Assembly (NCBI GenBank): GCA_018660265.1
Contig: JABJKS010000062.1
Coordinates: 1-43,899, forward strand
Direction: 5' to 3'
DNA from: Rhodospirillaceae bacterium
GTDB lineage: Bacteria > Pseudomonadota > Alphaproteobacteria > GCA-2731375
Length of the DNA: 43,899 nucleotides
The notes beneath the pieces are model-generated. The model made no database searches. It saw nothing but the letters and a program-made list of their open reading frames with translations, and was not told where the DNA came from. The position numbers and the translations under genes were made by a program. Within the stretch, counting starts at the first letter, position 1. Every line of letters starts with the position of its first letter. Positions 26,510 through 41,524 of the stretch are shown in pieces.

Positions 26510-26659
26510 ATGAATTTCATGAAAAAGCTGGTCAGCATAGTCTCCCACCTCGGCGAAGTCGCCGACCACAAGACCTTCCCGCTCTACGCCACGGAACATC
26601 CCGTCGCCAAGGGCATCAGTCTGACCGCCCAGATGTTGGAAGCCAGGGTCGGTCGCTAA
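26510..26659 (+). CDS. 49-residue small protein
   Basis: ATG 26510 with a GAAGG ribosome binding site opens a 49-codon frame ending at TAA 26657. The sequence starts MNFMKKLVSIVSHLGEVADH and ends KGISLTAQMLEARVGR. It has an amphipathic basic N-terminal helix and no signal peptide. I do not recognise a family. Codon use is like that of the neighbouring genes, which supports it as a real gene. It lies 152 bp before the exported Cys-rich protein on the same strand. Confidence 0.5.
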   Translation: MNFMKKLVSIVSHLGEVADHKTFPLYATEHPVAKGISLTAQMLEARVGR

Positions 26660-26811
26660 TCGGCATTGCTATCAGCCGGGCTGTGTTCAAGGTCTCGTGA
26701 TCGCATGTGATTGGCATTCCCCCCTGGGGCAAGCCAAATTGCAGTTACGCGAACAGTAAAATACCAAAACCAAATCACGTGACCAAAACAACCAGCCTGG
26801 AGGCTCCTGTT

Positions 26812-27084
26812 ATGTCGAACCCAACCGCAAAAACCCGCACCGCGAAAGCTGTAAAAACGGTTCTTGGCTCCGTCGCCATTGCCGCTATGACCGCCACTGC
26901 TACATTGCCAAGCGCCCTGGCGTCCTGCTCGCCGGCGAAATCCTGCAATCCCTGCGCGGCGAAAAAAGGCTGTGGTGCGTGTAATCCATGCGCAGCCAAG
27001 AAAAAAGGCTGTGGTGCCTGCAATCCTTGCGCGGCGAAAAAGGCCTGCAGCCCCTGCAATCCTTGCGCTGCAAAGAAAAAATAA
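26812..27084 (+). CDS. Exported cysteine-rich CNPC-repeat protein
   Basis: A 90-residue preprotein. Residues 1-37 are a signal peptide with basic start, hydrophobic core and an ALA cleavage site. The mature 53 residues hold 12 cysteines. After SCSPAKS come four copies of CNPCAAKK, separated by GCGA, KGCGA and ACSP, so cysteines fall mostly in C-x2-C-x2-C triads spaced by 5-6 residues, with lysines between. There are no acidic or aromatic residues in the mature part. A metal-binding or thiol-buffer role in the periplasm is plausible; a modified peptide precursor is another option, but no maturation enzyme is adjacent. GGAGG lies 8 bp before the ATG. A strong terminator follows, so the gene is likely well expressed as a single unit. 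Confidence 0.8.
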   Translation: MSNPTAKTRTAKAVKTVLGSVAIAAMTATATLPSALASCSPAKSCNPCAAKKGCGACNPCAAKKKGCGACNPCAAKKACSPCNPCAAKKK

Positions 27085-27104
27085 CCAAAACAGCCTACAC
27101 AGAC

Positions 27105-27144
27105 AAAACCCCGTCGCGTTGCCTTCCCGGCGCGGCGGGGTTTT
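27105..27144 (+). terminator. Strong intrinsic terminator
   Basis: AAAACCCCGTCGCG (27105-27118) pairs with CGCGGCGGGGTTTT (27131-27144) through 14 positions with one G-T wobble, loop 12 nt, followed by TTTTATTTT. It lies 20 bp after the Cys-rich gene. Confidence 0.92.
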
Positions 27145-29486: not shown

Positions 29487-30893
29487 TTACTGGGCGGCAG
29501 AGGCACCTTCCTGCTTGATCTGCCGGGCCGTTTCGTCCAGCGCATTGGTGAAGCGGTCAAACATTTCATCAATTTCATCGGACGTGATGATCAAGGGCGG
29601 GCAGAAGCCCAGAATATCGCCGGGCATGGCACGGGTGATCAGGCCATGTTCCTGGCACGCATTCTGGATCAGGGCGCCAATTTTGGCGGCGGGGTCATAG
29701 GAACGCTTGGTCGCCTTATCGGCGACAATTTCCACCGCACCAATCAGGCCAACACCGCGGGCATGGCCCACCAGTTCATGTTCGCCCAATTTGGCGATGC
29801 GCTTTTGGAAATGGGGCGATACCGCTTTCACATGGCCGATGATGTCCCTTTCCTGCATCAATTCCTGGGTCCGCAGGGCCACAGCGGCGCAGGCGGGATG
29901 GGCGGAATAGGTATAGCCGTGGCCGAACAGGCCCAGTTTTTCGGAATTTCCACGCAAGCCCTGGAAAATCTCCTCACTGATCATAACGGCGGAAATAGGC
30001 AGATAGGCGGATGACAAAGCCTTGGCGCAGGTCAGGATATCGGGCTTGATACCGAACGTCTGACTACCCCACATGTTACCCGTACGGCCGAAGCCGCAGA
30101 TCACTTCATCGGCGATCATCAGGACTTCGTATTTTTTCAAGACCGCCTGGATCTTCTCAAAATAGCCCTTTGGCGGGACGACGACGCCGCCGGCACCCAT
30201 CACAGGTTCGGCAATAAAGGCGGCAACGGTCTCGGGCCCCTCCTCCAGGATCATATCTTCGAGGGCCTGGGCGCAACGGCTGGCGAAATCTTCCTCTGAC
30301 TCGCCGTCTTCTGCACCGCGATAATAATCCGGCGTCATGGTGTGGCGGACAAAATCCAGGGGCAGATCGAAATCAGCCTGAGCATAGGGCAGACCCGTCA
30401 GGCTGCCCGAGGCGACGGTCACCCCGTGATAACCGCGCAGGCGCGAGATAAATTTCTTTTTCTTGGGCCGACCGCGGGCGTTATTGAAGTACCAGACCAT
30501 CTTAACAGCCGAGTCGTTAGCTTCAGAACCGGAATTGGCAAAAAATACCTTAGAAAATTCAACCGGGGCAATTTCCTTCAGCCGTTCCGCCAGATCAATG
30601 GCCGGATGCACCGATTTACCGGCAAAACTGTGATAATAGGGCAGCACGGTCATTTGTTCCGTCGCCGCCTTAACCAATTCTTCCTCGGCGAAACCGAAGG
30701 ACGCGCACCAAAGACCGGCCAGGCCTTCGATATATTCCTTACCGCTTTCATCGGTGACATAAACGCCACGCCCTTTGGTGACGATCTGCGGACCCGTTAT
30801 TTCATGGGTCGCCAGATTGGTGTAGGGGTGGAGTACATGGGCAATATCCCGGCTTTCCGGAGAGTTGCCGCGATCCGATGTGCGATCAGTCAT
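29487..30893 (-). CDS. Class III aminotransferase
   Basis: A 468-residue PLP-dependent omega-aminotransferase. The PLP lysine is Lys291 (CAKALSSAYLPISAV), with the aspartate motif IADEVICGFGRTG (Asp262) and the phosphate-binding NSGSEANDSAVK (120-131). LHPYTNLATHE near the start and GRGVYVTDESGKEYIEGLAGLW are typical of beta-alanine/taurine/putrescine:pyruvate transaminases. The amine donor cannot be assigned from sequence. The minus-strand start has GGAAAGG upstream. Divergent from the acyl-CoA dehydrogenase array over 168 bp. Confidence 0.9.
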   Translation of the reverse strand: MTDRTSDRGNSPESRDIAHVLHPYTNLATHEITGPQIVTKGRGVYVTDESGKEYIEGLAGLWCASFGFAEEELVKAATEQMTVLPYYHSFAGKSVHPAIDLAERLKEIAPVEFSKVFFANSGSEANDSAVKMVWYFNNARGRPKKKKFISRLRGYHGVTVASGSLTGLPYAQADFDLPLDFVRHTMTPDYYRGAEDGESEEDFASRCAQALEDMILEEGPETVAAFIAEPVMGAGGVVVPPKGYFEKIQAVLKKYEVLMIADEVICGFGRTGNMWGSQTFGIKPDILTCAKALSSAYLPISAVMISEEIFQGLRGNSEKLGLFGHGYTYSAHPACAAVALRTQELMQERDIIGHVKAVSPHFQKRIAKLGEHELVGHARGVGLIGAVEIVADKATKRSYDPAAKIGALIQNACQEHGLITRAMPGDILGFCPPLIITSDEIDEMFDRFTNALDETARQIKQEGASAAQ

Positions 30894-31061
30894 TCTATGG
30901 TTTCCTTTCCTGGCATCACTGCCTATTGGAGTTAACCCATTTCACGCTTTCTAGCTGCTGAAGTCAAAGCCTGGAATAGGAATTTTTTCTATCTTTTGTC
31001 TCCACCGTTCCGGCGATGCGTCCTAAACTAGGGCCGATTAGGTAATTAACCGGGTAGTAAC

Positions 31062-32246
31062 ATGCATCTTGAGGCAGTGGCGGCAGATAAAATATTCCGT
31101 GAAGAGGTCCGGAATTTTCTGGATAAGCATCTATCGAAAGAGCTGCGTCAGGCGGGCCAGCGCACCACGGGCATCTGCAGCCCCCATGCGCCCGGTATGG
31201 CCTGGCAAAAAATTCTCTACGCCAAAGGCTGGGTTGCGCCCAGTTGGCCGGTGGAACATGGCGGCCCGGGATGGAGCCCTATGCAACGCCATATTTTCGC
31301 CACGGAATGCAATTTGGCGGATGCACCCATTATGGCGCCCATGGGCCTGGACATGGTTGGTCCGGTTATCATGGGCCACGGCAATGCGGCGCAAAAGGCG
31401 TTTTATCTGCCGCGAATCCTGTCGGGCGAAGATAGCTGGTGCCAGGGCTATTCCGAGCCGGGGTCGGGCTCTGATCTAGCCTCGTTGCAATGCCAGGCGG
31501 TCAAGAATGGCGATAACTATATAATCAACGGCAGTAAAATCTGGACCACCCATGCCCAGCACGCCGATCGCATGTTCTGTCTGGTGCGCACCAAGAACGA
31601 CGGCAAGCCACAGGCAGGGATTACTTTTCTGCTGTTGGAAATGAACAGCCCCGGCGTCACTGTGGAGCCGATCATAACACTTGCCGGCAATCACGAGGTC
31701 AACCAGGTCTTCTTCGATGACGTTCAGGTACCCCAGTCGAATATTGTCGGGGCGGAGAATGACGGCTGGACCGTCGCCAAGCACCTGTTGGAGTTTGAGC
31801 GCGGCGGCCGGGCCTGGGGTGCCCGCTTGCACGGCGCCATGGCCATTCTGCGGCAGCTGGTCGAAGCCCGCAATTTGAACAGCGGCACTTTTAACCAACG
31901 CCTGGCCGGCCTGGCCGCAGAAATAACAGCCGTGGAATTTACGGAACAACGGGTAATTGCGGAAATGACCAAAACAGGTCGCATCGGCCCAGCGTCATCG
32001 CTGCTAAAAACCCGCGCCGGAACCGTATTGCAGGAAATCAGCGAATGCGCGGTCGAGGTGCTGGGCAACTATGCCGTCCCGCATCAGCCTGAGGCCAGCC
32101 AATGGGGCAGTAATATTGAACCTATTGGCCAGATTGACGAACTGGCTGTTGTCGGGCGATACCTTGACCTACGGGCGCGCTCTATCGCTGGCGGTTCCAA
32201 TGAAGTTCAGCGTAATATCATGGCAAAGCTGGTTTTAGGCATGTAA
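31062..32246 (+). CDS. Acyl-CoA dehydrogenase, first of three tandem paralogues
   Basis: A 394-residue FAD-dependent acyl-CoA dehydrogenase. The FAD/substrate segment is WCQGYSEPGSGSDLASLQ, followed by NGSKIWTTHAQHADRMFCLV. The C-terminal signature reads IAGGSNEVQRNIMAK, lacking the Tyr-Glu-Gly-Thr glutamate of MCAD. A candidate base is Glu246 in LLEFERGG, which aligns with the catalytic glutamate of isovaleryl-CoA and long-chain enzymes. It is more diverged from the two following copies than they are from each other (shorter tail, ICSPHAPG insert region). Probably acts on a branched or steroid-like acyl-CoA; the electron acceptor would be ETF. Confidence 0.9.
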   Translation: MHLEAVAADKIFREEVRNFLDKHLSKELRQAGQRTTGICSPHAPGMAWQKILYAKGWVAPSWPVEHGGPGWSPMQRHIFATECNLADAPIMAPMGLDMVGPVIMGHGNAAQKAFYLPRILSGEDSWCQGYSEPGSGSDLASLQCQAVKNGDNYIINGSKIWTTHAQHADRMFCLVRTKNDGKPQAGITFLLLEMNSPGVTVEPIITLAGNHEVNQVFFDDVQVPQSNIVGAENDGWTVAKHLLEFERGGRAWGARLHGAMAILRQLVEARNLNSGTFNQRLAGLAAEITAVEFTEQRVIAEMTKTGRIGPASSLLKTRAGTVLQEISECAVEVLGNYAVPHQPEASQWGSNIEPIGQIDELAVVGRYLDLRARSIAGGSNEVQRNIMAKLVLGM

Positions 32247-32307
32247 TAGCTGACAATCTTGGATATTGGAACGTCACAGGGCTGCAGGCGCGAAGGAGTA
32301 ATGAATT

Positions 32308-33510
32308 ATGGATATGGAAATGACGGCGGCGGATGCGGCCTTTCGTGATGAGGTGTGCAATTTTTTTGACGCCAAGCTAACCGAGGATATGCGTGAGGCC
32401 TCGAACCTGACATCGGGCGTTTTTGCGGAAATGGAAATTGGCCGCCGTTGGCATACCGCGCTTTATGAGCAGGGCTGGATCGCACCTGCCTGGCCGGAAG
32501 AACATGGCGGCACCGGTTGGACGCCCATGCAGCGCTATATCTATGATTCCGAGGCGGGGGCGGCAGGGGCACCGCGATTATTCTCCATGGGCCTGCGCAT
32601 GGTCGGCCCCGTCGTGATGAAATTCGGTACGGATGAGCAGAAAAATTTCTATCTGCCCCGCATCCGGGCCGGCGACGACGTATGGTGCCAGGGTTACTCC
32701 GAGCCAGGCTCGGGCTCTGATCTCGCAAGTCTTCAAACCCGCGCCGTTGTTGATGGTGATCACTATGTGGTGAACGGCACCAAGCTGTGGACCACGGGGG
32801 CACAATACGCCGATCGCATGTTCTGCCTGGTCCGTACCTCTACCGAAGGCAAGCCCCAAGAGGGCATCTCCTTCATTCTGATCGATATGGATACGCCGGG
32901 TATCAAGATCGAACCGATCATCACCCTGGCCGGTGATCACGAGGTCAACCAGGTCTTCCTTGATGACGTGCGCGTGCCTATCAAGAACCGTGTGGGCGAG
33001 GAGAACGACGGCTGGACCGTAGCGAAATATCTATTGGAATTTGAACGCGGCGGCGCGGCCTATGCCACGGTATTGGAAGCAGCGTTGGAAAAACTGCGCG
33101 CCGTTGCCGAAAATGAGTGCGCGAACAACGGTCGCCTGATCGATGACGATGCCTTTGCCGCGAAGCTGGCCAATTTGGAAGTGCGCCAGATGGCTGTACA
33201 GGCCACGGAACATCGCATTATGTCAGACATTGCACAGCGCGGTCGGCCCGGACCCGCGTCCTCTATCATGAAAGTATTGGGCTCGGAGAACAATCAGCTG
33301 ATCTCCGAGCTGGCGGTGGAAGCGAGCCAGTATTATGGCGCCGTCTATCAGCCTGAAGCCCGCGTGCCCGGCAACAATGTGGCACCCATCGGGCCGGCCA
33401 AGTCTGTCCCCGTAATGCCGAAATACCTGAACTTCCGTGCCGCGACGATTTATGCCGGGTCATCCGAGGTTCAACGCAACATCATGGCAAAGCTGGTTTT
33501 GGGCCTATAA
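32308..33510 (+). CDS. Acyl-CoA dehydrogenase, second of three tandem paralogues
   Basis: A 400-residue paralogue that aligns without gaps with the next gene through at least the first 250 residues (shared MREAS, VFAE, RRW/QRW, PMQRYIYDSEAG, GYSEPGSGSDLASLQTRA). Candidate catalytic Glu246 in YLLEFERGG; the C-terminal motif is IYAGSSEVQRNIMAK. AAGGAG lies 9 bp before the ATG at 32308. It lies 61 bp after the first copy and 24 bp before the third, so it is probably cotranscribed with them. Different paralogues may form a mixed complex or act on different chain types. Confidence 0.9.
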   Translation: MDMEMTAADAAFRDEVCNFFDAKLTEDMREASNLTSGVFAEMEIGRRWHTALYEQGWIAPAWPEEHGGTGWTPMQRYIYDSEAGAAGAPRLFSMGLRMVGPVVMKFGTDEQKNFYLPRIRAGDDVWCQGYSEPGSGSDLASLQTRAVVDGDHYVVNGTKLWTTGAQYADRMFCLVRTSTEGKPQEGISFILIDMDTPGIKIEPIITLAGDHEVNQVFLDDVRVPIKNRVGEENDGWTVAKYLLEFERGGAAYATVLEAALEKLRAVAENECANNGRLIDDDAFAAKLANLEVRQMAVQATEHRIMSDIAQRGRPGPASSIMKVLGSENNQLISELAVEASQYYGAVYQPEARVPGNNVAPIGPAKSVPVMPKYLNFRAATIYAGSSEVQRNIMAKLVLGL

Positions 33511-33534
33511 ATTTGAACCTGTAAGGAACCTCCC

Positions 33535-34737
33535 ATGGATCTGGAAATGAATGCGGACGATCGGGCCTTTCGTGATCAGGTCCGGCGTTTTCTGGATACG
33601 GAATTGACCGCTGATATGCGAGAGGCATCGCGTCTGAATTCAGGTGTTTTCGCAGAGCACGAGATCGCGCAGCGTTGGTACAAGACCCTGCACAAAAAAG
33701 GCTGGATCGCACCAACCTGGCCGGCGGAATATGGCGGCACCGGCTGGACACCCATGCAGCGTTATATCTACGATTCCGAGGCCGGGCAGATCGGCACCCC
33801 CAGCATCAATGTCATGGGCCTGGCCCTGGCGGGCCCGGTATTGATGCAATTTGGCACCGATGCGCAAAAGGAATATTATCTGCCCAGAATACTTTCCGGC
33901 GAAGATACCTGGTGTCAGGGCTATTCGGAACCCGGCTCCGGCTCTGATCTGGCATCGCTGCAAACCAGGGCGCTGGCGGACGGTGACGATTATGTGGTCA
34001 ACGGATCGAAAATCTGGACCACCGGTGCGCAACATGCCGACCGCATATTCTGTCTGGTGCGAACGGCGGACACAGAGAAACGCCAGGAAGGTATCTCCTT
34101 TGTTCTGATCGATATGGATACGCCCGGTATCACCGTGCAGCCGATCATTACCCTGGCTGGTGATCACGAAGTTAATCAAGTCTTCTTTGACGATGTGCGC
34201 GTGCCCCAGGCCAATCGGTTGGGCGACGAGAACGACGGCTGGACCGTCGCCAAATATCTGTTGGAATTTGAACGCGGCGGCAGCGCCTATGCCGCCACCG
34301 TTGCCTCATCATTAGCCAAATTGCGCGATATCGCGGCGGCGGAAGAAAAAAGTGGCGGGCATCTGATGGATGACCCTGGCTTTGCCCTGAAGGTTGCGGC
34401 GGCCGAGATCAAACAGCAGGCAGCGGAATATACAGAGCACCGTACGATTGCAGAAATTACCCAACAGGGACGCCCCGGGCCAGCCAGTTCCATCATGAAA
34501 GTCCTTGGTTCGGAATCCAATCAATGGATGACCGAACTGATGGTCGAGGCGGTACAATATTACGGCGCGCCCTATCAGCCTGAAGCGCGCGTACCCGGCA
34601 ATAATATCGATCCCGTGGGCCCCGACCACGCGGTGCCTGTGGTGCCCAAATTCCTGAATTTTCGCGCCTCGACCATCTATGGCGGTTCCAACGAAATTCA
34701 GCGCAACATTGTCGCCAAGCAGGTCCTCGGTCTTTGA
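33535..34737 (+). CDS. Acyl-CoA dehydrogenase, third of three tandem paralogues
   Basis: A 400-residue acyl-CoA dehydrogenase with WCQGYSEPGSGSDLASLQTR, GSKIWTTGAQHADRIFCLV, candidate catalytic Glu246 in YLLEFERGGS and the C-terminal IYGGSNEIQRNIVAKQVLGL. AAGGA lies upstream of ATG 33535. It closes the three-gene array; the ebo operon begins 92 bp later in the same direction. Confidence 0.9.
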   Translation: MDLEMNADDRAFRDQVRRFLDTELTADMREASRLNSGVFAEHEIAQRWYKTLHKKGWIAPTWPAEYGGTGWTPMQRYIYDSEAGQIGTPSINVMGLALAGPVLMQFGTDAQKEYYLPRILSGEDTWCQGYSEPGSGSDLASLQTRALADGDDYVVNGSKIWTTGAQHADRIFCLVRTADTEKRQEGISFVLIDMDTPGITVQPIITLAGDHEVNQVFFDDVRVPQANRLGDENDGWTVAKYLLEFERGGSAYAATVASSLAKLRDIAAAEEKSGGHLMDDPGFALKVAAAEIKQQAAEYTEHRTIAEITQQGRPGPASSIMKVLGSESNQWMTELMVEAVQYYGAPYQPEARVPGNNIDPVGPDHAVPVVPKFLNFRASTIYGGSNEIQRNIVAKQVLGL

Positions 34738-34829: not shown

Positions 34830-36068
34830 ATGAAACAAGACGTGAATTTTGATGAACAGGCGGTGCCGGGACGGCAGCAAACGTCGTCGCTGCGCGGCCC
34901 CGTCACCGAGACGATTGTTCAACAATTCTCTATGCCGGTGGAATATCCGGTGGTCTTTACCCATGGCCTGTTTGATCCCGGTAATTCGGCCCTGTGCGAC
35001 GTGGTCCGCCGCTATGAACCGGACAAACGGCATCGTTTGTTCGTGGTTCTGGATGACGGTGTGGCCCAGGCCATACCTGATTTGACCACCCGCCTGGCTG
35101 CCTATGCTGCGGCCCATGAAAGCCACCTGGAACTTCTCACTGTGGAGTTGGTGCAGGGCGGCGAAGCGGTCAAGAACCAGGCCGATCATGTTGATAATCT
35201 GCTGGAACGTATGCTGGCCCTGGCCGTTGACCGTCATTCATACGTCATGGCCATCGGCGGCGGGGCCGTGCTGGATCTGGTTGGCTATGCCGCCGCGATC
35301 TGTCATCGGGGCATCCGGTTGTTGCGGGTTCCCACGACGGTGCTGGCACAAAACGATTCAGGCGTTGGTGTAAAGAACGGCGTGAATGCCCTGGGGGTGA
35401 AAAATTTCGTCGGCACCTTTGCGCCGCCCTTTGCGGTTCTGAACGATTTTGCCTTCATCGAAAGTTTGCAGCACCGGGACAAAATCGCGGGCATGGCGGA
35501 GGCGGTAAAAGTCGCCCTGATCCGCGACGGGGCGTTTTTTACCTGGCTGGAAGCCAATGCAAAAGACCTGGCGCGGTTCGAACCGCAGGCCATGGCCTAT
35601 ATGATCCGCCGCTGTGCGGAGCTGCATTTGCGCCACATCGGCACCGGGGGCGATCCGTTCGAGCAGGGCAGCGCCCGGCCCCTGGATTACGGACATTGGT
35701 CGGCCCACAAACTCGAAGGGTTAAGCAACCACGACCTGCGCCATGGCGAGGCGGTGGCCATCGGCATGGCCATGGATGCCCACTATGCCGTGCTGATGGA
35801 TATGTTGAGCGAGATCGAGGGTCAGCGAATTTGCCGCCTGTTAGAGACCCTGGGTTTTCGGCTGTGGCACGACACACTGGAAATGACCGCGGAAAACGGC
35901 GAAGTCGCAGTCATGGATGGCCTGCGGGAATTTCAGGAACATCTGGGCGGTGAGCTGACCATCACCTTAATTGCCGCCATTGGCCAGGGCGTGGAAGTCC
36001 ACCACATTGATGCGGTGACGATGCTGGCCGCCCGGGACTGGTTGCGGGAAAGGTCTGCGACCCCATGA
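34830..36068 (+). CDS. eboD: EboD, 3-dehydroquinate synthase-like protein
   Basis: A 412-residue member of the dehydroquinate synthase superfamily assigned to EboD by motif and context. NAD site: VMAIGGGAVLDLVGYAAAIC (139-158). Metal ligands are Glu224 (GMAEAVKVALI), His289 (DYGHWSAHKLE) and His305 (RHGEAVAIGMAMD). RVPTTVLAQNDSGVGVKNG and FAPPFAVLNDFAFI match sugar-phosphate cyclases. It would cyclise or rearrange a phosphosugar-like substrate; the real substrate is unknown. The eboE start overlaps its stop (ATGA). First gene of eboDEC-cupredoxin. Confidence 0.9.
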   Translation: MKQDVNFDEQAVPGRQQTSSLRGPVTETIVQQFSMPVEYPVVFTHGLFDPGNSALCDVVRRYEPDKRHRLFVVLDDGVAQAIPDLTTRLAAYAAAHESHLELLTVELVQGGEAVKNQADHVDNLLERMLALAVDRHSYVMAIGGGAVLDLVGYAAAICHRGIRLLRVPTTVLAQNDSGVGVKNGVNALGVKNFVGTFAPPFAVLNDFAFIESLQHRDKIAGMAEAVKVALIRDGAFFTWLEANAKDLARFEPQAMAYMIRRCAELHLRHIGTGGDPFEQGSARPLDYGHWSAHKLEGLSNHDLRHGEAVAIGMAMDAHYAVLMDMLSEIEGQRICRLLETLGFRLWHDTLEMTAENGEVAVMDGLREFQEHLGGELTITLIAAIGQGVEVHHIDAVTMLAARDWLRERSATP

Positions 36069-37282
36069 AGCTTGCTCCGGCAAAAGGTGGAGCCCATCTC
36101 ACCTATTGCACCAATATCCATCCCGGAGAAACCTGGGAGGAAGTCTCGCACGCCCTAAAGGTGCATCTGCCGGCGGTCAAGGCGCAGCTTTGCCCGGACC
36201 AGGATTTTGGTGTTGGTTTGCGCCTGTCCGCAGCGACGGCCCGTGATTTACAAGACCCGGAAGCCTTCGCCGAATTGCAGGATATTCTGACCACTGCTGG
36301 CTTGTACGTATTCACCATCAACGGCTTCCCCTACGGCACCTTTCATGGTGCCCGGGTCAAGGAGGGTGTCTATCAGCCGGATTGGCGCACCGGTGATCGT
36401 CTGGCCTATTCCAACCATTTGGCGGATCTGCTGGTCCGCCTGTTACCGGACGACGGCAGCATCGATGGCAGCATCTCCTCCGTGCCCGGCGGCTTTAAGG
36501 CTGACGTGGAAGGGCCGGAAACCATCCGCGCCATGGTCGATAACATGCTGCGCCATGCGGCCTATCTGGTGCATTTGCGCCGGCTCACCGGGCGCAGCAT
36601 CGCCCTGGCGTTGGAGCCGGAACCCTGCTGCGTGCTGGAAACCACGGAAGAGGCGGTGAACGCCTTTAAGCGTCATTTGTTTAATGGTGCCGCCATTTCT
36701 CAAATGGCCATGTACACCGGTTCCTCCCGCGCCGATGCTGAGGCGGACCTGCACCGGCACCTGGGCATCTGTCTGGACCTGTGCCATGCGGCGGTTGAAT
36801 TCGAAAACCCCGATCAGGCAGTCGATACCCTGCAGGCCGCCGGTATCTCGATCCCGAAAGTGCAGATCAGCGCCGGCCTGCGCTTACCGCAAGTCAGCAA
36901 GGCGGACATCGCCCGCATCAAACTCTTCGATGATGAGGTCTATTTGCATCAGGTCGTGGCGAAAACCGCATATGGGATGGAACGGTATCCCGATTTAGGC
37001 GACGCCTTTGCCAGCTTCAAGGAAGCCGAAAAACCTGAATGGCGGGTGCATTTTCATGTCCCTATTTTCTTGGCGGAGTTGGACGGTTTCACCACAACCC
37101 GCCCGGCGGTGGAACAATTTCTGGCCCGCCAGGCAAAGAACTCGGTGACCGATCATCTGGAAGTCGAGACCTATACCTGGGACGTCCTGCCTGAAGAATT
37201 CCGCAGGGACGATGTGGTGACCAACATCGTCAAGGAAATGCGCTGGGCACAACAACAGCTTGGGAACGGCAGCACGCCATGA
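36065..37282 (+). CDS. eboE: EboE, TIM-barrel metabolite traffic protein
   Basis: A 405-residue sugar-phosphate isomerase/epimerase-like TIM barrel of the 'metabolite traffic protein EboE' family. The start HLTYCTNIHPGETW is diagnostic. Barrel metal residues are likely Glu in LALEPEPCC, Asp/His in ICLDLCHAAVEFE, His in RVHFHVPIF and Glu in LEVETYTWDVLP. A conserved SSVPGGFK lies midway. ATGA overlaps with eboD and with eboC show strict coupling. Its reaction is unknown; it is the most characteristic member of ebo clusters. Confidence 0.92.
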   Translation: MKLAPAKGGAHLTYCTNIHPGETWEEVSHALKVHLPAVKAQLCPDQDFGVGLRLSAATARDLQDPEAFAELQDILTTAGLYVFTINGFPYGTFHGARVKEGVYQPDWRTGDRLAYSNHLADLLVRLLPDDGSIDGSISSVPGGFKADVEGPETIRAMVDNMLRHAAYLVHLRRLTGRSIALALEPEPCCVLETTEEAVNAFKRHLFNGAAISQMAMYTGSSRADAEADLHRHLGICLDLCHAAVEFENPDQAVDTLQAAGISIPKVQISAGLRLPQVSKADIARIKLFDDEVYLHQVVAKTAYGMERYPDLGDAFASFKEAEKPEWRVHFHVPIFLAELDGFTTTRPAVEQFLARQAKNSVTDHLEVETYTWDVLPEEFRRDDVVTNIVKEMRWAQQQLGNGSTP

Positions 37283-38148
37283 ATTGGCAAACCCTGTTGC
37301 GCCTGGGCCGGGTCTCGAACCTACCCACGGTTTGGTCCAACAGCCTGGCCGGTTTGGTTCTGGCCGGCAGCGGGGTGATGTTGGATGTGGGCCTCGCCCT
37401 CATGGTCATCATGTCGTTGTTCTATGTTGGCGGCATGTATCTCAACGATGCCTTCGATCAGCACATTGATGCGGTTGAACGGCCCGAACGGCCCATACCT
37501 TCGGGCCAGATCAGCGCCACAGCCGTCTACACATCCGGCTTTATCATGCTGGCCCTGGGCATCGCGGCATTGTTCTGGTGGGGACAAAGCATGGATCGGG
37601 GGATAGCGCCGGGACTGTGCGGCATCGCCCTGGCCGGGGCCATTGTCTATTATGACTGGCGCCATAAGACCGATCCCGTGGGTCCGGCCTGGATGGGTTT
37701 ATGCCGGGTGCTGGTCTATCTGGCCGCCGCCTTCCTGGTAACCGCCCAGCCACCCGTTATCCTGTACTTGGGTGCCGTGGCATTGTTTTGCTATCTGATC
37801 GGCCTGACATACATTGCCAAGCAGGAAAACCTGGGCCGGGTGGCCAACTTGTGGCCCCTGTTGTTTCTGGCGGTACCAGCCGCCGCCGCCGTCTGGATCG
37901 GTGCAACTGACGGCATCTTCGCCCTGGCCTTGGCGATCGTGTTCGTGGTCTGGATGATCAATGCCCTACGCTATCTGTGGCGACGTCAACCGGGCGATAT
38001 TCCCCGCGCCGTGGTCAGCCTGATCGCGGGCATGTCTTTGTTGGATGCGGTCCTGATCGCCCATATGGGCGCACCGCAAATGGCCGCGGCAGCCGCCGTC
38101 TGTTTCGTTCTGACCCTGGCCTTTCAACGCTTCATTCCAGGCACTTAA
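37279..38148 (+). CDS. eboC: EboC, UbiA-type prenyltransferase
   Basis: A 289-residue inner-membrane protein of the UbiA prenyltransferase family with about eight or nine hydrophobic segments. The first aspartate-rich motif is Asn56-Asp-x2-Asp60-x3-Asp64 (GMYLNDAFDQHIDAVERPER), which binds prenyl diphosphate through Mg. The second is in YYDWRHKTDPVGP. LRLGRVSNLPTVWSNSLAG is the usual UbiA N-terminus. It would prenylate the ebo product; the acceptor is unknown. Idi of the opposite operon would supply the isoprenoid. It overlaps eboE by 4 bp. Confidence 0.92.
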   Translation: MNWQTLLRLGRVSNLPTVWSNSLAGLVLAGSGVMLDVGLALMVIMSLFYVGGMYLNDAFDQHIDAVERPERPIPSGQISATAVYTSGFIMLALGIAALFWWGQSMDRGIAPGLCGIALAGAIVYYDWRHKTDPVGPAWMGLCRVLVYLAAAFLVTAQPPVILYLGAVALFCYLIGLTYIAKQENLGRVANLWPLLFLAVPAAAAVWIGATDGIFALALAIVFVVWMINALRYLWRRQPGDIPRAVVSLIAGMSLLDAVLIAHMGAPQMAAAAAVCFVLTLAFQRFIPGT

Positions 38149-38150
38149 TC

Positions 38151-38528
38151 ATGCAAAGCCTACGTTATCTTATGTCTGTTCTGATGCTATTGGGCCTGAT
38201 CGCTTTACCGCAGGCTTTCGCCGGTCAATCCACAGCCAATGTCATTGAGTTGGTGATAAAGGAACGGGCGGTTCAAGGCAAAAAGGTCGTGCGGGTGACC
38301 GAGGGCGTGACCGTTACCCTGCATTGGACCACGGACGAAAAGGTCGAACTGCATCTACATGGCTATGATATCGAGAAGACCGTCAAACCTGGAACGACCC
38401 TGACCATGACGTTCAAGGCTCGCGCGACGGGCCGCTTTCCGGTCACAGCACATGGATTTGGTGAACATGGCCATGGTGGCAGCCATGCCGAAAAGGCGTT
38501 GGTTTACCTTGAAGTGCTGCCAGATTAG
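38151..38528 (+). CDS. Periplasmic cupredoxin-like protein in the ebo operon
   Basis: A 125-residue preprotein with a signal peptide (1-24, LGLIALPQAFA then GQS) and a short beta-rich domain. Cupredoxin-like marks are VTEGVTVTLHWTTDEKVELH, LHLHGYDIEKTVKPGTTL and FPVTAHGFGEHGHGGSHAEK, which is rich in histidine and could bind copper. The classical Cys ligand of blue copper proteins is absent, so an electron-transfer role is not certain; a copper-carrier role is possible. ATG 38151 comes 2 bp after the eboC stop, so it is part of the ebo transcript. Convergent with eboF over 1 bp. Confidence 0.8.
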   Translation: MQSLRYLMSVLMLLGLIALPQAFAGQSTANVIELVIKERAVQGKKVVRVTEGVTVTLHWTTDEKVELHLHGYDIEKTVKPGTTLTMTFKARATGRFPVTAHGFGEHGHGGSHAEKALVYLEVLPD

Positions 38529-38529
38529 T

Positions 38530-39906
38530 TCAGTTGAAAATATGATCCAGCACGATCTGTTTCACCGCCGTGGCGGGAACTTCGGCATCGGGCAGTAATT
38601 CCGCTTCTGAACTGATGATCAAGGGGCCGTCTTCCGGCTTGTCCGTGATCCTGCCGTGAGAGCCTTTGACCAGGGTCGCATCCAGGGGGATCACGTCCAT
38701 TAAGGTACGGAAACCCAGGGCCTTCTTAATCAGACGCCGGCCAATAGCGAGGGCGGGGATTTTGATGGCCGGATCCATAAACAGCTCCACCGGGTCATAG
38801 CCAGGCTTGCGGTGGATCTCCACCGTGCGGGCAAAATCAGGCGCCTTGTCATCGTCGAGGAAGTAATAGTAGGTAAACCAACGGTCCGCTTTAGAGATCG
38901 CCACCAGGTCACCGGCCCGGGGATGGCCCAGGCCGTAATCAATCTTGCCTGCCTCGTCCAACACCACCTCAACACCATCCAAACCTTCGATCAGGGCCTT
39001 CACCTCCGCCAGGCGTTCGGGGTTGCGCACGTGGATATGGGCGATCTGGTGATCGGCGATGGCGAAAGCTTCCGATGCCCCTGGGTCCAATATCTCGCGG
39101 CCACGCTCCTCCACCCGCACCTGGATCAAGCCCGCCTGGCGCAGGGCGCGATTAATATGCACAGGCCCCGTGACATTGGTGATGCCGTATTCCGACAGCA
39201 CCACAATGCGGGTGCCGTCCTTGTCCGCCTGGTCGATCAACTGGCCACACAAGGCATCGACAGCACGCACTTCGGGCTCCACCTCCGGTGCGTCGGGGCC
39301 GTATTTCTGCAGGCTGTAATCCAGGTGGGGCAGATAGACCATGGTCAAGGTTGGGTCCCGGGTCTCGCGCATATGCAGGGCCGAACGGGTAATCCAATCT
39401 GATGCAATCAAATCCGCCGCCGGGCCCCAAAATCGAAACAGAGGAAACTGCCCCAATTTGCCATTCAGTTCGCCGCGCAGATCCTCGGGCGCGGCATGAA
39501 TATCCGGCAGTTTTCGCCCATCGGCAGGGTACATGGGCCGGGGCGTGACGGCCCAATCCACATCCGCATACATGTTGTACCACCAGAACAGTTTGGCGCA
39601 GGTGAATTCCGGGTCCCGGGCCTTGGCCGCATCCCAGATCTTCTCCCCCGCCACCAGCTTGTTGGATTGCCGCCAGAACCAGATCTCTGACAGATCCCGA
39701 AAATACCAGCCATTGCCGACAATGCCTGTCTGCGCCGGGGCCAGGCCCGTAACAAAAGTAGATTGTGCCGCGCACGTCACCGCAGGGGTAACCGTGCGCA
39801 GGGGCTGCATAGCGCCGCGTTTGGCCAGTTTCGAAAGGTTTGGGGTATTCGGCCCCATCAGGGACGGCGTCAGACCGACGACGAGAACAACAATTGTACG
39901 CTGCAC
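38530..39906 (-). CDS. eboF: EboF, alkaline phosphatase superfamily protein
   Basis: A 458-residue protein of the nucleotide pyrophosphatase/phosphodiesterase side of the alkaline phosphatase superfamily, recognised as EboF. The probable nucleophile is Thr in TPAVTCAAQSTFVTGLAP. GIVGNGWYFRD, FWWYNMYADVDWAVTPRPMY, LPHLDYSLQKYGPD and ADHQIAHIHV are characteristic. Metal residues look altered: the N-terminal Asp position reads VVGLT, and the SDHG motif is SEYG. Start GTG 39906 has GGCGGAG upstream; the frame continues further left inside eboB but without similarity. eboB ends 4 bp before. Confidence 0.9.
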   Translation of the reverse strand: MQRTIVVLVVGLTPSLMGPNTPNLSKLAKRGAMQPLRTVTPAVTCAAQSTFVTGLAPAQTGIVGNGWYFRDLSEIWFWRQSNKLVAGEKIWDAAKARDPEFTCAKLFWWYNMYADVDWAVTPRPMYPADGRKLPDIHAAPEDLRGELNGKLGQFPLFRFWGPAADLIASDWITRSALHMRETRDPTLTMVYLPHLDYSLQKYGPDAPEVEPEVRAVDALCGQLIDQADKDGTRIVVLSEYGITNVTGPVHINRALRQAGLIQVRVEERGREILDPGASEAFAIADHQIAHIHVRNPERLAEVKALIEGLDGVEVVLDEAGKIDYGLGHPRAGDLVAISKADRWFTYYYFLDDDKAPDFARTVEIHRKPGYDPVELFMDPAIKIPALAIGRRLIKKALGFRTLMDVIPLDATLVKGSHGRITDKPEDGPLIISSEAELLPDAEVPATAVKQIVLDHIFN

Positions 39907-39910
39907 GAAG

Positions 39911-40801
39911 TTACTCCGCCGGCTCAACAACGGCTTCTTGGCCACGCAGGACGGAATTGCCTTCCCACAGCTCCGACTGATCAACCCGGGGCCGCCCCCC
40001 ATCCGCGCCCAGGTCCAAACGACCGCTTTGTCCGAAAAATGCGATGGGATTGTGCCAGACCACGGTTTCGATATCGCTTTCCGCGATGCCTGCTTCGCGC
40101 ATAGCGGCCACAGTCTTCGGCACCTTCAGGGGGTCGGAAACGCCCCAGTCGGCAGCGGAGTTGATGGTGATCCGTTCCGTACCATATTGCTGTACCAATG
40201 TGGCCATGCGGCCTTCATCCATCTTTGTATTGGGATAGATGGAGTGGCCGGCCCAGCAGCCGCTATCCAAGGTCGCGGCCAGGGTTTCCTCGTTATTGTG
40301 ATCGATCAGCACCCGGCCCGGATCAATGCCCGAGGCTTTGACCAGATCAATGGTCCGCTCCGTCCCGGCCTTTTTGTCCCGGTGCGGGGTGTGGATCAAG
40401 ACCGGCAGCTCATAGTCGATGGCCAGTTGCATCTGCGCCTCGAAATGTTTGGTCTCGACCGCTGTCTGATCATCAAATCCGATCTCGCCAACACCGACGC
40501 AGCTTTCCTTTTCCAGATAGATCGGCAACAGCTCCATCACCCCATCGGCGACGTCCGGGTTATTCGCCTCCTTCGGGTTCAGACCGATGGTGCAGAAATG
40601 GTGGATACCGAACTGTTTCGAACGGAACCGCTCCCACCCCACAAGGGAGAGGAAATAATCCTCGAACGCGCCAACGTGGGTTCGCGGCTGGCCGACCCAG
40701 AACGCAGGTTCGATAATCGCGACAATACCTGCATCCGCCATGGCCTGATAATCATCGGTGGTGCGGGAGGTCATGTGAATATGGTGGTCGAACATTTTCA
40801 T
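39911..40801 (-). CDS. eboB: EboB, TatD-family metal hydrolase
   Basis: A 296-residue TIM-barrel hydrolase of the TatD/amidohydrolase type. Metal ligands are His7-x-His9 (DHHIHM), Glu in GVGEIGFDD, His in VLIHTPHRDKK, His in LIDHNNEET and Asp in NSAADWGVSD. EPAFWVGQPRTHVGAFEDYF and FGIHHFCTIGLNPKEANN mark the EboB group. It would hydrolyse a small compound in the cytoplasm. It lies 48 bp after eboA and 4 bp before eboF. Confidence 0.92.
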   Translation of the reverse strand: MKMFDHHIHMTSRTTDDYQAMADAGIVAIIEPAFWVGQPRTHVGAFEDYFLSLVGWERFRSKQFGIHHFCTIGLNPKEANNPDVADGVMELLPIYLEKESCVGVGEIGFDDQTAVETKHFEAQMQLAIDYELPVLIHTPHRDKKAGTERTIDLVKASGIDPGRVLIDHNNEETLAATLDSGCWAGHSIYPNTKMDEGRMATLVQQYGTERITINSAADWGVSDPLKVPKTVAAMREAGIAESDIETVVWHNPIAFFGQSGRLDLGADGGRPRVDQSELWEGNSVLRGQEAVVEPAE

Positions 40802-40849
40802 GGCTTGTTCCTAACGTTTTTCACTTGGATGCGCCCCAAAAGCGGCACC

Positions 40850-41524
40850 TCAAGCCGCATCCAGGTTCACGATCAAATCCACATCATCGGGTACTGCACG
40901 ACCAGCCGCGCGGCGTTCAGAAGCGAACGCGACGACCATGCGCTTTAATTCAGGTGTTGCACGGTTGCCCAAATCGGTGATCCGGCCCACCAGTACGGCC
41001 AGAAATATCGCCTTTAAAACCATCGGGTTAAAGGCAGCTTCCGGGAACATCGCGGCTGGATAGGCGTTCTCGCACGCGATGGCCTCAAACACGTCCAGCA
41101 CATTGGTGCGGCAGGCATCAATGGCCAGTTCCAGAAACTGTTCCGGCCGGGGTAGGAACGACAGGCTTTGCAATACCGCCGCCTGCTCGCGAAAATCACC
41201 CCGCAAATAGACCTGACGTACAAATGCAGCCTGTTCTTCACCCGGTAAAAGCGACAAAGCGCGCAGCAACAACGCTGTGCGCGCAACGTTGTCCAACTGC
41301 CAGTCGGCACCGACAATGACGCCGGCATCGCTTAACATTCGGACATCGCCCGCCTGCAATGGCAAATCACGCAGACGCCGGGCACACCCGGCAAAGGCGG
41401 CGCGAAATTGCACGCTGGAGGGCGCGGCATCCCTACCCCCTGCTCCGGGCCAGACACGCTCAAGCCATTTTTTTGCCGGCCCATCGACCCGAGCCCATAA
41501 TATTTCAGCAAAACATTCGGTCAT
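40850..41524 (-). CDS. eboA: EboA domain protein
   Basis: A 224-residue alpha-helical protein with the EboA signature: ENAYPAAMFPEAAFNPMVLK at 152-171, then RITDLGNRATPELKRM and ASERRAAGRAVPDD at the end. No catalytic residues are known; the helix-rich form suggests a scaffold role in the ebo complex. It starts 9 bp after the idi stop. Confidence 0.92.
   Translation of the reverse strand: MTECFAEILWARVDGPAKKWLERVWPGAGGRDAAPSSVQFRAAFAGCARRLRDLPLQAGDVRMLSDAGVIVGADWQLDNVARTALLLRALSLLPGEEQAAFVRQVYLRGDFREQAAVLQSLSFLPRPEQFLELAIDACRTNVLDVFEAIACENAYPAAMFPEAAFNPMVLKAIFLAVLVGRITDLGNRATPELKRMVVAFASERRAAGRAVPDDVDLIVNLDAA

Follow-up and report, generated by a model that had tools for sequence, protein, structure and literature searches.

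A predicted exported cysteine-repeat peptide of Alphaproteobacteria and its association with the DUF6969 family

The peptide gene and its conservation

The window (the whole stretch of DNA analysed, 43,899 nucleotides from a Rhodospirillaceae genome) carries a short gene for a cysteine-rich peptide with a predicted export signal, flanked by its own translation and termination signals:

26812..27084, + strand: CNPC-repeat exported peptide gene, 90 amino acids (open reading frame; dN/dS against six orthologs)
26799..26803, + strand: ribosome binding site GGAGG, 8 nt 5' of the ATG (sequence; motif also in six orthologs)
26812..26925, + strand: Sec-type signal region, residues 1-38 (hydrophobic stretch and conservation; predicted cleavage site)
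26926..27081, + strand: mature Cys-repeat region, 52 residues with 12 Cys (translation)
26944-26964, 26980-27000, 27019-27039 and 27055-27075, + strand: four CNPCAAK units (residue positions)
27105..27144, + strand: intrinsic terminator with a 17-pair stem (sequence)

The translated protein opens with a hydrophobic signal whose last residues are ...LPSALA, followed by SCSPAKSCNPCAAKKGCGACNPCAAKKKGCGACNPCAAKKACSPCNPCAAKKK, and all 12 cysteines lie C-terminal to the predicted cleavage after ALA. Its cysteine-rich part consists of CNPCAAKK units; the four CNPCAAK copies differ by synonymous codons only, and eight of the twelve cysteines are directly followed by Ala, Gly or Ser. A Pfam scan of the protein detected no P460 domain, the protein has no haem motif, and a simple scan found no sigma-70-type promoter 5' of the gene. 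An earlier sequence-only reading had proposed an exported, cysteine-rich product of about 53 mature residues with 12 cysteines, preceded by a ribosome binding site and followed by a terminator, and these proposals are borne out: 52 residues are counted here with all 12 cysteines present, export is supported by hydrophobicity and the gene is also under selection. The same reading placed the gene at 26812-27144, of which the start stands but the end does not, since the reading frame stops at 27084 and 27144 is the end of the terminator.

Comparison with six orthologs, on contigs corresponding by coordinates to same-genus genomes, gave dN/dS values of 0.030, 0.036, 0.076, 0.074, 0.042 and 0.061; judged by these ratios, strong purifying selection acts on the gene, Cys positions included. 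GGAGG and a downstream G+C-rich hairpin-like sequence (hairpins identified by eye) are present in each of the six. Frameshifts in close relatives had been put forward as evidence that would count against the gene: an unbroken stand-alone ortholog occurs in seven of the ten same-genus genomes examined, while the match in one (G004) holds two internal stops, another (G006) is truncated at a contig end and a third (G009) has no match. The substitution ratios and the orthologs together indicate that the gene is real and selected, yet not universal in the genus. Conservation extends into the signal, residues 16-38 being 83-96% identical to five orthologs and the mature part 79-96%. Signal peptides usually drift; in the SUMF1-like protein considered below, the first 26 residues are 12-31% identical among related genomes (values lowered by uncertain gene starts) and the remainder 73-78%. 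That the signal region of the peptide is conserved nonetheless suggests that it may be read by something besides Sec, and in this respect it may resemble a leader.

Other genes in the window were labelled by inspection. Upstream of the peptide gene, a 49-codon open reading frame at 26510-26659 (+) has no Pfam match and recurs in seven loci, apparently from four related genomes, where 48-49 residues align at 60-86% identity. A class III aminotransferase-like gene and three acyl-CoA dehydrogenase-like genes occupy 29487-34737 (labels by eye), and most of the closest loci likewise have the aminotransferase and at least one dehydrogenase 3' of the peptide. The run at 34830-41524, which we take to resemble an Ebo cluster, comprises dehydroquinate synthase-like, EboE-like, UbiA-like, phosphodiesterase-like, TatD-like and EboA-like genes, and is presumably followed by an IPP isomerase-like gene.

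Paralogs, relatives and recurrent neighbours

The genome of the window (121 contigs, 97% complete) contains two more CNPC-repeat genes, one on contig C101, called at 377 residues, and one on contig C104, called at 373. The C-terminus of the C104 paralog is a Cytochrome_P460 domain (E=8e-7, over the cut-off), whereas the C101 paralog has no Pfam match as a whole protein. Scanned alone, the C-terminal haem regions of all 31 aligned proteins, both paralogs included, match PF16694 at E<=0.01 (31 of the 47 listed were taken, and rows were chosen beforehand for CxxCH). The paralogs therefore end like cytochrome P460/c'-beta proteins, in PF16694 with CxxCH and an invariant Lys; they differ from cytochrome P460 in the long CNPC repeats that precede the domain, and the window gene has no haem domain. 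By hand count on a weak profile match (E=0.17), the invariant Lys either coincides with Lys70 of Nitrosomonas europaea P460 or lies beside it, Lys70 being the cross-linked residue according to the part of a P460 review drawn on here (PMC11928373). A single P460 sequence compared with the PDB gave nothing credible; the profile matched, weakly. Neither 'cysteine-rich' nor 'fusion' appears as a term in the main text of that review (PMC11928373), and the matches listed in open-licence literature for P460 with cysteine-rich or formylglycine looked unrelated.

On the strand opposite to the C104 paralog lie a SUMF1/FGE-like gene and a DUF6969 (PF22308) gene of about 240 codons, the DUF6969 match being at C104:125334-125933, and the neighbour of the C101 paralog encodes a plastocyanin-type protein (PF00127). 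The sequence-only reading had noted that no known enzyme partner is adjacent to the peptide gene. This is correct at the window locus, where the DUF6969, SUMF1/FGE-like and cytochrome-fusion genes of the same genome are found on another contig; it misleads as to the family, where relatives adjoin genes for DUF6969, SUMF1/FGE-like proteins and cytochrome fusions.

In named species genomes, 201 stretches with CNPC relatives were found, the best 80 of which yielded 76 loci with 60 distinct accession prefixes. By title, nearly all are metagenome-assembled and assigned to Alphaproteobacteria, Rhodospirillales/Rhodospirillaceae, Hyphomicrobiales or Proteobacteria, with three from Gammaproteobacteria. 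Neighbours were counted on homemade gene calls, which include some wrong starts and some loci that end at contig ends (the SUMF1-like row from L008, for example, begins a few codons 5' of a Met). On this basis, 35 of the 76 loci contain a DUF6969 gene and 28 a SUMF1-like gene, with at least one of the two in 42 and both in 21. In 18 loci a gene for a short peptide adjoins a haem-fused gene on the same strand, and only short peptides, unaccompanied by a haem fusion, were called in 23, some of them cut. The fused domain varies: in Hyphomicrobium locus L078 the C-terminal domain attached to the repeats matches both SoxA/TsdA cytochrome c and CCP_MauG; its counterpart in a gammaproteobacterial locus matches CCP_MauG. 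Locus L095, from Denitrobaculum tricleocarpae R148, holds both peptide types together with DUF6969 on a single stretch, and no SUMF1-like gene was called in it. Other recurrent neighbours, each named from one representative, are YeeE/YedE Sulf_transp genes (11 loci), weak cupredoxin-like genes (8) and DUF302 genes (6). A hydrophobicity test predicts an N-terminal signal in 37 of 39 short CNPC proteins.

Neighbours also recur in a second arrangement, in which no DUF6969 was called. It is seen in four loci (L059, L080, L089 and L099), where the short CNPC gene comes after two genes, one for a membrane protein like TVP38 and the other for a pyridine nucleotide-disulfide oxidoreductase; in the last three a sensor-kinase-like gene follows 3' of the short CNPC gene (TVP38 and kinase labels by eye).

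Across 289 alphaproteobacterial genomes, CNPC matches occur in 29, DUF6969 in 62 and SUMF1-like proteins (E<=1e-40) in 20. DUF6969 is encoded in 28 of the 29 CNPC genomes and in 34 of the 260 others (odds ratio 186, p=1.3e-20, with kinship ignored). The single exception, G137, is an assembly that ends at a contig end within its SUMF1-like gene; DUF6969 comes after the SUMF1-like gene in several other genomes, and in G137 it may thus simply be missing from the assembly. The nearest CNPC-DUF6969 spacing in the 28 genomes is less than 3 kb in 16 and less than 10 kb in 18, the two lying far apart or on other contigs in 10. DUF6969 is likewise carried by 18 of the 20 SUMF1-like genomes, the two others being the cut G137 and G054, whose SUMF1-like match lacks the GGSW...CxxC signature and may therefore represent another SUMF1 subfamily. 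In a phylum-wide sample of 398 genomes, 20 contain DUF6969, and the 14 control genomes have none; 171 plasmid records match DUF6969, and no plasmid match was obtained for the window peptide. By these counts DUF6969 is the most constant genetic partner of the CNPC family, which SUMF1/FGE-like proteins and haem fusions accompany less often.

DUF6969 and its cysteine-repeat partners

None of 30 aligned DUF6969 proteins (the query's own row and 29 of 34 listed) has an N-terminal signal by the hydrophobicity test, and DUF6969 should therefore act in the cytoplasm. Its invariant residues include E49, H52, D57, D60, H70, H72, E78, H81 and H83, a His/Asp/Glu pattern that may be of the kind expected of a metal site. 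An AlphaFold2 model (mean pLDDT 89, pTM 0.90) gave nothing credible against the PDB with Foldseek (best E 0.49, which is no proof of a new fold), and a second aligner (VIA) gave a best Z of 5.4 over 76 residues at an rmsd of 4.7; the sequence produced one chance-level PDB match (E 0.46). Since the fold matched nothing, an enzyme activity of DUF6969 is a guess. NCBIfam contained nothing for DUF6969 or for three further CNPC proteins, no open-licence paper naming DUF6969 was found (subscription papers may do so) and a PADLOC defence-system search returned no match for four proteins, the window peptide included.

The SUMF1-like partner belongs to PF03781 and carries a predicted N-terminal signal in 23 of 28 proteins (hydrophobicity test). 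Its model (pLDDT 82) matches PvdO (Z 21.8; rmsd 2.9 over 219 residues), ToxD (21.7; 2.9 over 230), EgtB (21.0; 2.8 over 214) and human FGE (20.4; 3.3 over 223) about equally, so its chemistry is not readable from the fold. Within this superfamily it has a consensus of its own, GGSWDD(K/S/R)GCG(V/I)CR, with C264 and C267 invariant in 28 of 28 rows (the query's own row and 27 of 28 cluster members), and it falls below the cut-off of every NCBIfam equivalog matched. In genome G018 (contig C8, 141792-147421), an MNIO gene lies about 4 kb from DUF6969, the sole such closeness noticed.

The association was also approached from the DUF6969 side, using 50 loci chosen by DUF6969 alone: 34 alphaproteobacterial genomes with no CNPC match and 16 places from the phylum sample, one of which (L197) is apparently identical to Hyphomicrobium locus L078. 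Controls were 20 stretches drawn from some of these contigs at a distance of about 100 kb, providing 60 control places at three per stretch. A first test for exported Cys-repeat open reading frames within 5 kb was positive in 22 of the 50 loci; of the 39 with full flanks 19 were positive, against 1 of 20 controls (p=0.001), the lone control positive looking like an antisense reading of another repeat gene. A second test, stricter about the signal and more lenient about the number of cysteines, was positive within 1.5 kb in 19 of 50 loci (18 of 42 with full flanks) and at none of the 60 control places (p=8e-9), and within 5 kb in 21 of 50 (18 of 38 with full flanks) and none of 20 controls; it was written after the peptide of Sinorhizobium meliloti had been seen and is thus not independent. 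Together the tests identified 25 of the 50 loci (12 of 34 alphaproteobacterial, 13 of 16 phylum places), and neither recognised a Cys-repeat frame in the other 25, some of which end at contig ends. Because both tests ask for repeated cysteines, their recurrence in DUF6969 partners is partly by construction. At least three PC(A/G/S/K) units are present in 19 of the 25 positive loci; the other six have CGA, CGG or CAA-type units instead of PC(A/G), and no one motif is therefore common to all. CxxC occurs in 18 of the 25 and is lacking altogether in 7, and 314 of the 428 cysteines in these frames are followed by Ala, Gly or Ser.

Individual loci illustrate the range of these peptides. On pSymB of S. 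meliloti 1021 (L224 4625-4999), an exported proline-rich frame with four isolated PCA/PCS cysteines overlaps the downstream DUF6969 frame by 8 nt and an upstream YeeE/YedE-like frame (label by eye) by ATGA; such overlaps are typical of coupled operons. The peptides of L188 and L189 are of an NPCGP type with four isolated cysteines. On Burkholderia glumae plasmid bglu_2p (L225 4589-9121), a gene for an exported 89-residue KCAPKCAP-repeat protein lies directly 5' of DUF6969, in a run that also encodes a methylthioadenosine phosphorylase, two glycosyltransferases annotated for arsenosugar biosynthesis and an FAD oxidoreductase; a sigma-70-family factor, thioredoxin and CcdA are encoded in the surroundings. 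No open-licence paper was found that pairs arsenosugar with ribosomally synthesized peptides. In two Azospirillum plasmid loci (of 13 Azospirillum records), DUF6969 lies 3' of an Mla-type ABC operon, and within 6 kb there was no sign of a repeat peptide.

Comparison with known systems and candidate roles

By its parts list the system is bufferin-like, yet it is non-homologous. Bufferins (Buf1/DUF2282, Buf2) and oxazolins resemble the window family in having a Sec-signal, Cys-rich precursor, a cytoplasmic partner and both stand-alone and operonic copies; the partner is MNIO there and DUF6969 here. The portion of an MNIO survey used here (PMC12452194) describes Sec signal peptides on bufferin precursors, and preliminary support for the idea that the bufferin signal peptide contributes to recognition. 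It also describes Buf1|Cytochrom_C|FGE-sulfatase chimaeras, in which another peptide family is paired with similar partners. Membership of the bufferin/MNIO peptides was rejected: MNIO (PF05114) has no match in the 97% complete genome of the window, it is not tied to CNPC (11 of 29 CNPC genomes and 110 of 289 overall, odds ratio 0.99), and the window protein has no DUF2282 (Buf1) match at E<=10 in a Pfam scan.

Other known families fit less well. FGE recognises a CxPxR motif, of which the C-x-P-C of the peptide is reminiscent; the window protein contains no CxPxR, its CNPCA having no Arg at +4, and thus lacks this mark of an FGE substrate. Metallothioneins are alike in being short and Cys-dense with CxxC spacing, and differ in that the window peptide is predicted to be exported; no Pfam metallothionein match was listed for it at E<=10. 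A CxxC zinc finger was also rejected, zf-CXXC scoring 19.9 bits against a cut-off of 26.5, which is treated as a composition match. NCBIfam contained nothing for the window peptide. No open-licence paper was found for the repeat strings CNPCAAK, CNPCNPC and NPCAAKK (subscription papers may contain them), and only an unrelated one for PF22308, KPCAAK, NPCAAN and CGACNPC. The window protein is exported by prediction, has repeated cysteines and shares its genome with DUF6969; it belongs to a widespread, apparently undescribed gene system with DUF6969.

The reading that we tentatively prefer, at a probability close to but short of even, is that the window gene encodes the Sec-exported precursor of a Cys-repeat peptide, that DUF6969 matures the peptide or loads its cysteines, and that the product holds thiophilic metal in the periplasm, in bufferin-like fashion without being a bufferin. 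The precursor would belong to a family in which PC(A/G) units are the commonest. DUF6969, encoded on another contig and acting in trans, would bind the conserved signal region as a leader and modify, load or protect the repeat cysteines in the cytoplasm ahead of Sec export. The mature peptide would then hold a thiophilic metal in the periplasm, probably copper, and the FGE-like and haem-fused partners would use or handle that metal there. This scheme is built on conservation, co-occurrence, adjacency and predicted localisation, from which we infer the modification, the metal and the action in trans. FGE is a cuproenzyme. For this reason, and because of the chimaeras reported in the portion of the survey cited (PMC12452194), copper would by analogy be the most likely metal. 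The absence of DUF6969 from the window locus speaks against this scheme, as do the 25 of 50 DUF6969 loci in which neither test recognised a Cys-repeat frame, the two Azospirillum loci and the want of a motif common to all partners. Among the roles that the sequence-only reading had offered (a metal trap, a thiol buffer or a modified peptide), the last gains most, through the cytoplasmic partner, the near-invariant signal and the distant relatives with isolated cysteines, the metal trap would fit the company of FGE-like proteins and cytochromes, and a thiol buffer is conceivable.

A somewhat unlikely alternative is that the peptide is an unmodified, metallothionein-like chelator of the periplasm, whose CxxC thiols would bind Cu(I), Zn, Cd or Hg while DUF6969 regulates or senses. 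The density of 12 cysteines in 52 residues with CxxC spacing agrees with such a role, as do the 18 of 25 DUF6969-side frames with CxxC, the plastocyanin-type neighbour (PF00127) of one paralog and, about 3.5 kb away within Hyphomicrobium locus L078, genes that we take to be MerR-, MerP- and MerT-like. A plain chelator, however, needs neither a cytoplasmic partner nor a conserved signal region; CxxC is missing from 7 of the 25 frames, and the four isolated cysteines of the S. meliloti, L188 and L189 peptides would be poor for a thiolate cluster. It is unlikely that the cysteines instead serve P460-like or SoxA/TsdA-like haem domains as carriers of electrons or sulfane sulfur, although repeats are indeed fused to P460 domains (all 31 aligned regions match PF16694) and, in L078, to a SoxA/TsdA-type domain. 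The YeeE/YedE family is named for sulfur transport; genes of this type in 11 of 76 loci (one representative matching Sulf_transp), and the S. meliloti frame that overlaps the PCA-peptide frame, itself overlapping DUF6969, speak for a sulfur role, as do the CcdA and thioredoxin genes about 3-4 kb upstream of DUF6969 in B. glumae. Such a carrier sits poorly with the 23 of 76 loci where only short peptides were called and no haem fusion, and with the short window peptide, which has no haem motif, and it leaves the N-P-C-A context unexplained.

It is very unlikely that DUF6969 serves low-complexity exported proteins as a targeting factor, chaperone or protease, with the repeats structural or surface elements. 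The signal region matches the repeats in conservation, and the repeats differ widely among loci, as this would predict; yet purifying selection that includes the cysteines exceeds the needs of a spacer, and many DUF6969 loci show no repeat protein at all. In the preferred reading, maturation by DUF6969 followed by metal holding, the peptide may represent a new type of metal-binding peptide that is matured by an enzyme. A bolder version, that DUF6969 founds a new, structurally unprecedented class of peptide-maturation enzymes acting on repeat cysteines across Pseudomonadota, with the window protein one of a set of new modified periplasmic metallopeptides, is possible but on balance doubtful.

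These results give DUF6969, a conserved family with an unrecognised fold, a context in exported peptides with repeated cysteines, of which pSymB of S. meliloti 1021, a laboratory strain amenable to genetics, carries a minimal version with overlapping peptide and DUF6969 frames. An exported Cys-rich peptide with a dedicated partner is already known; if DUF6969 is a maturase, it would be the class that is new, and if it modifies cysteines, it would represent a new peptide-maturation chemistry missed by MNIO-centred mining.
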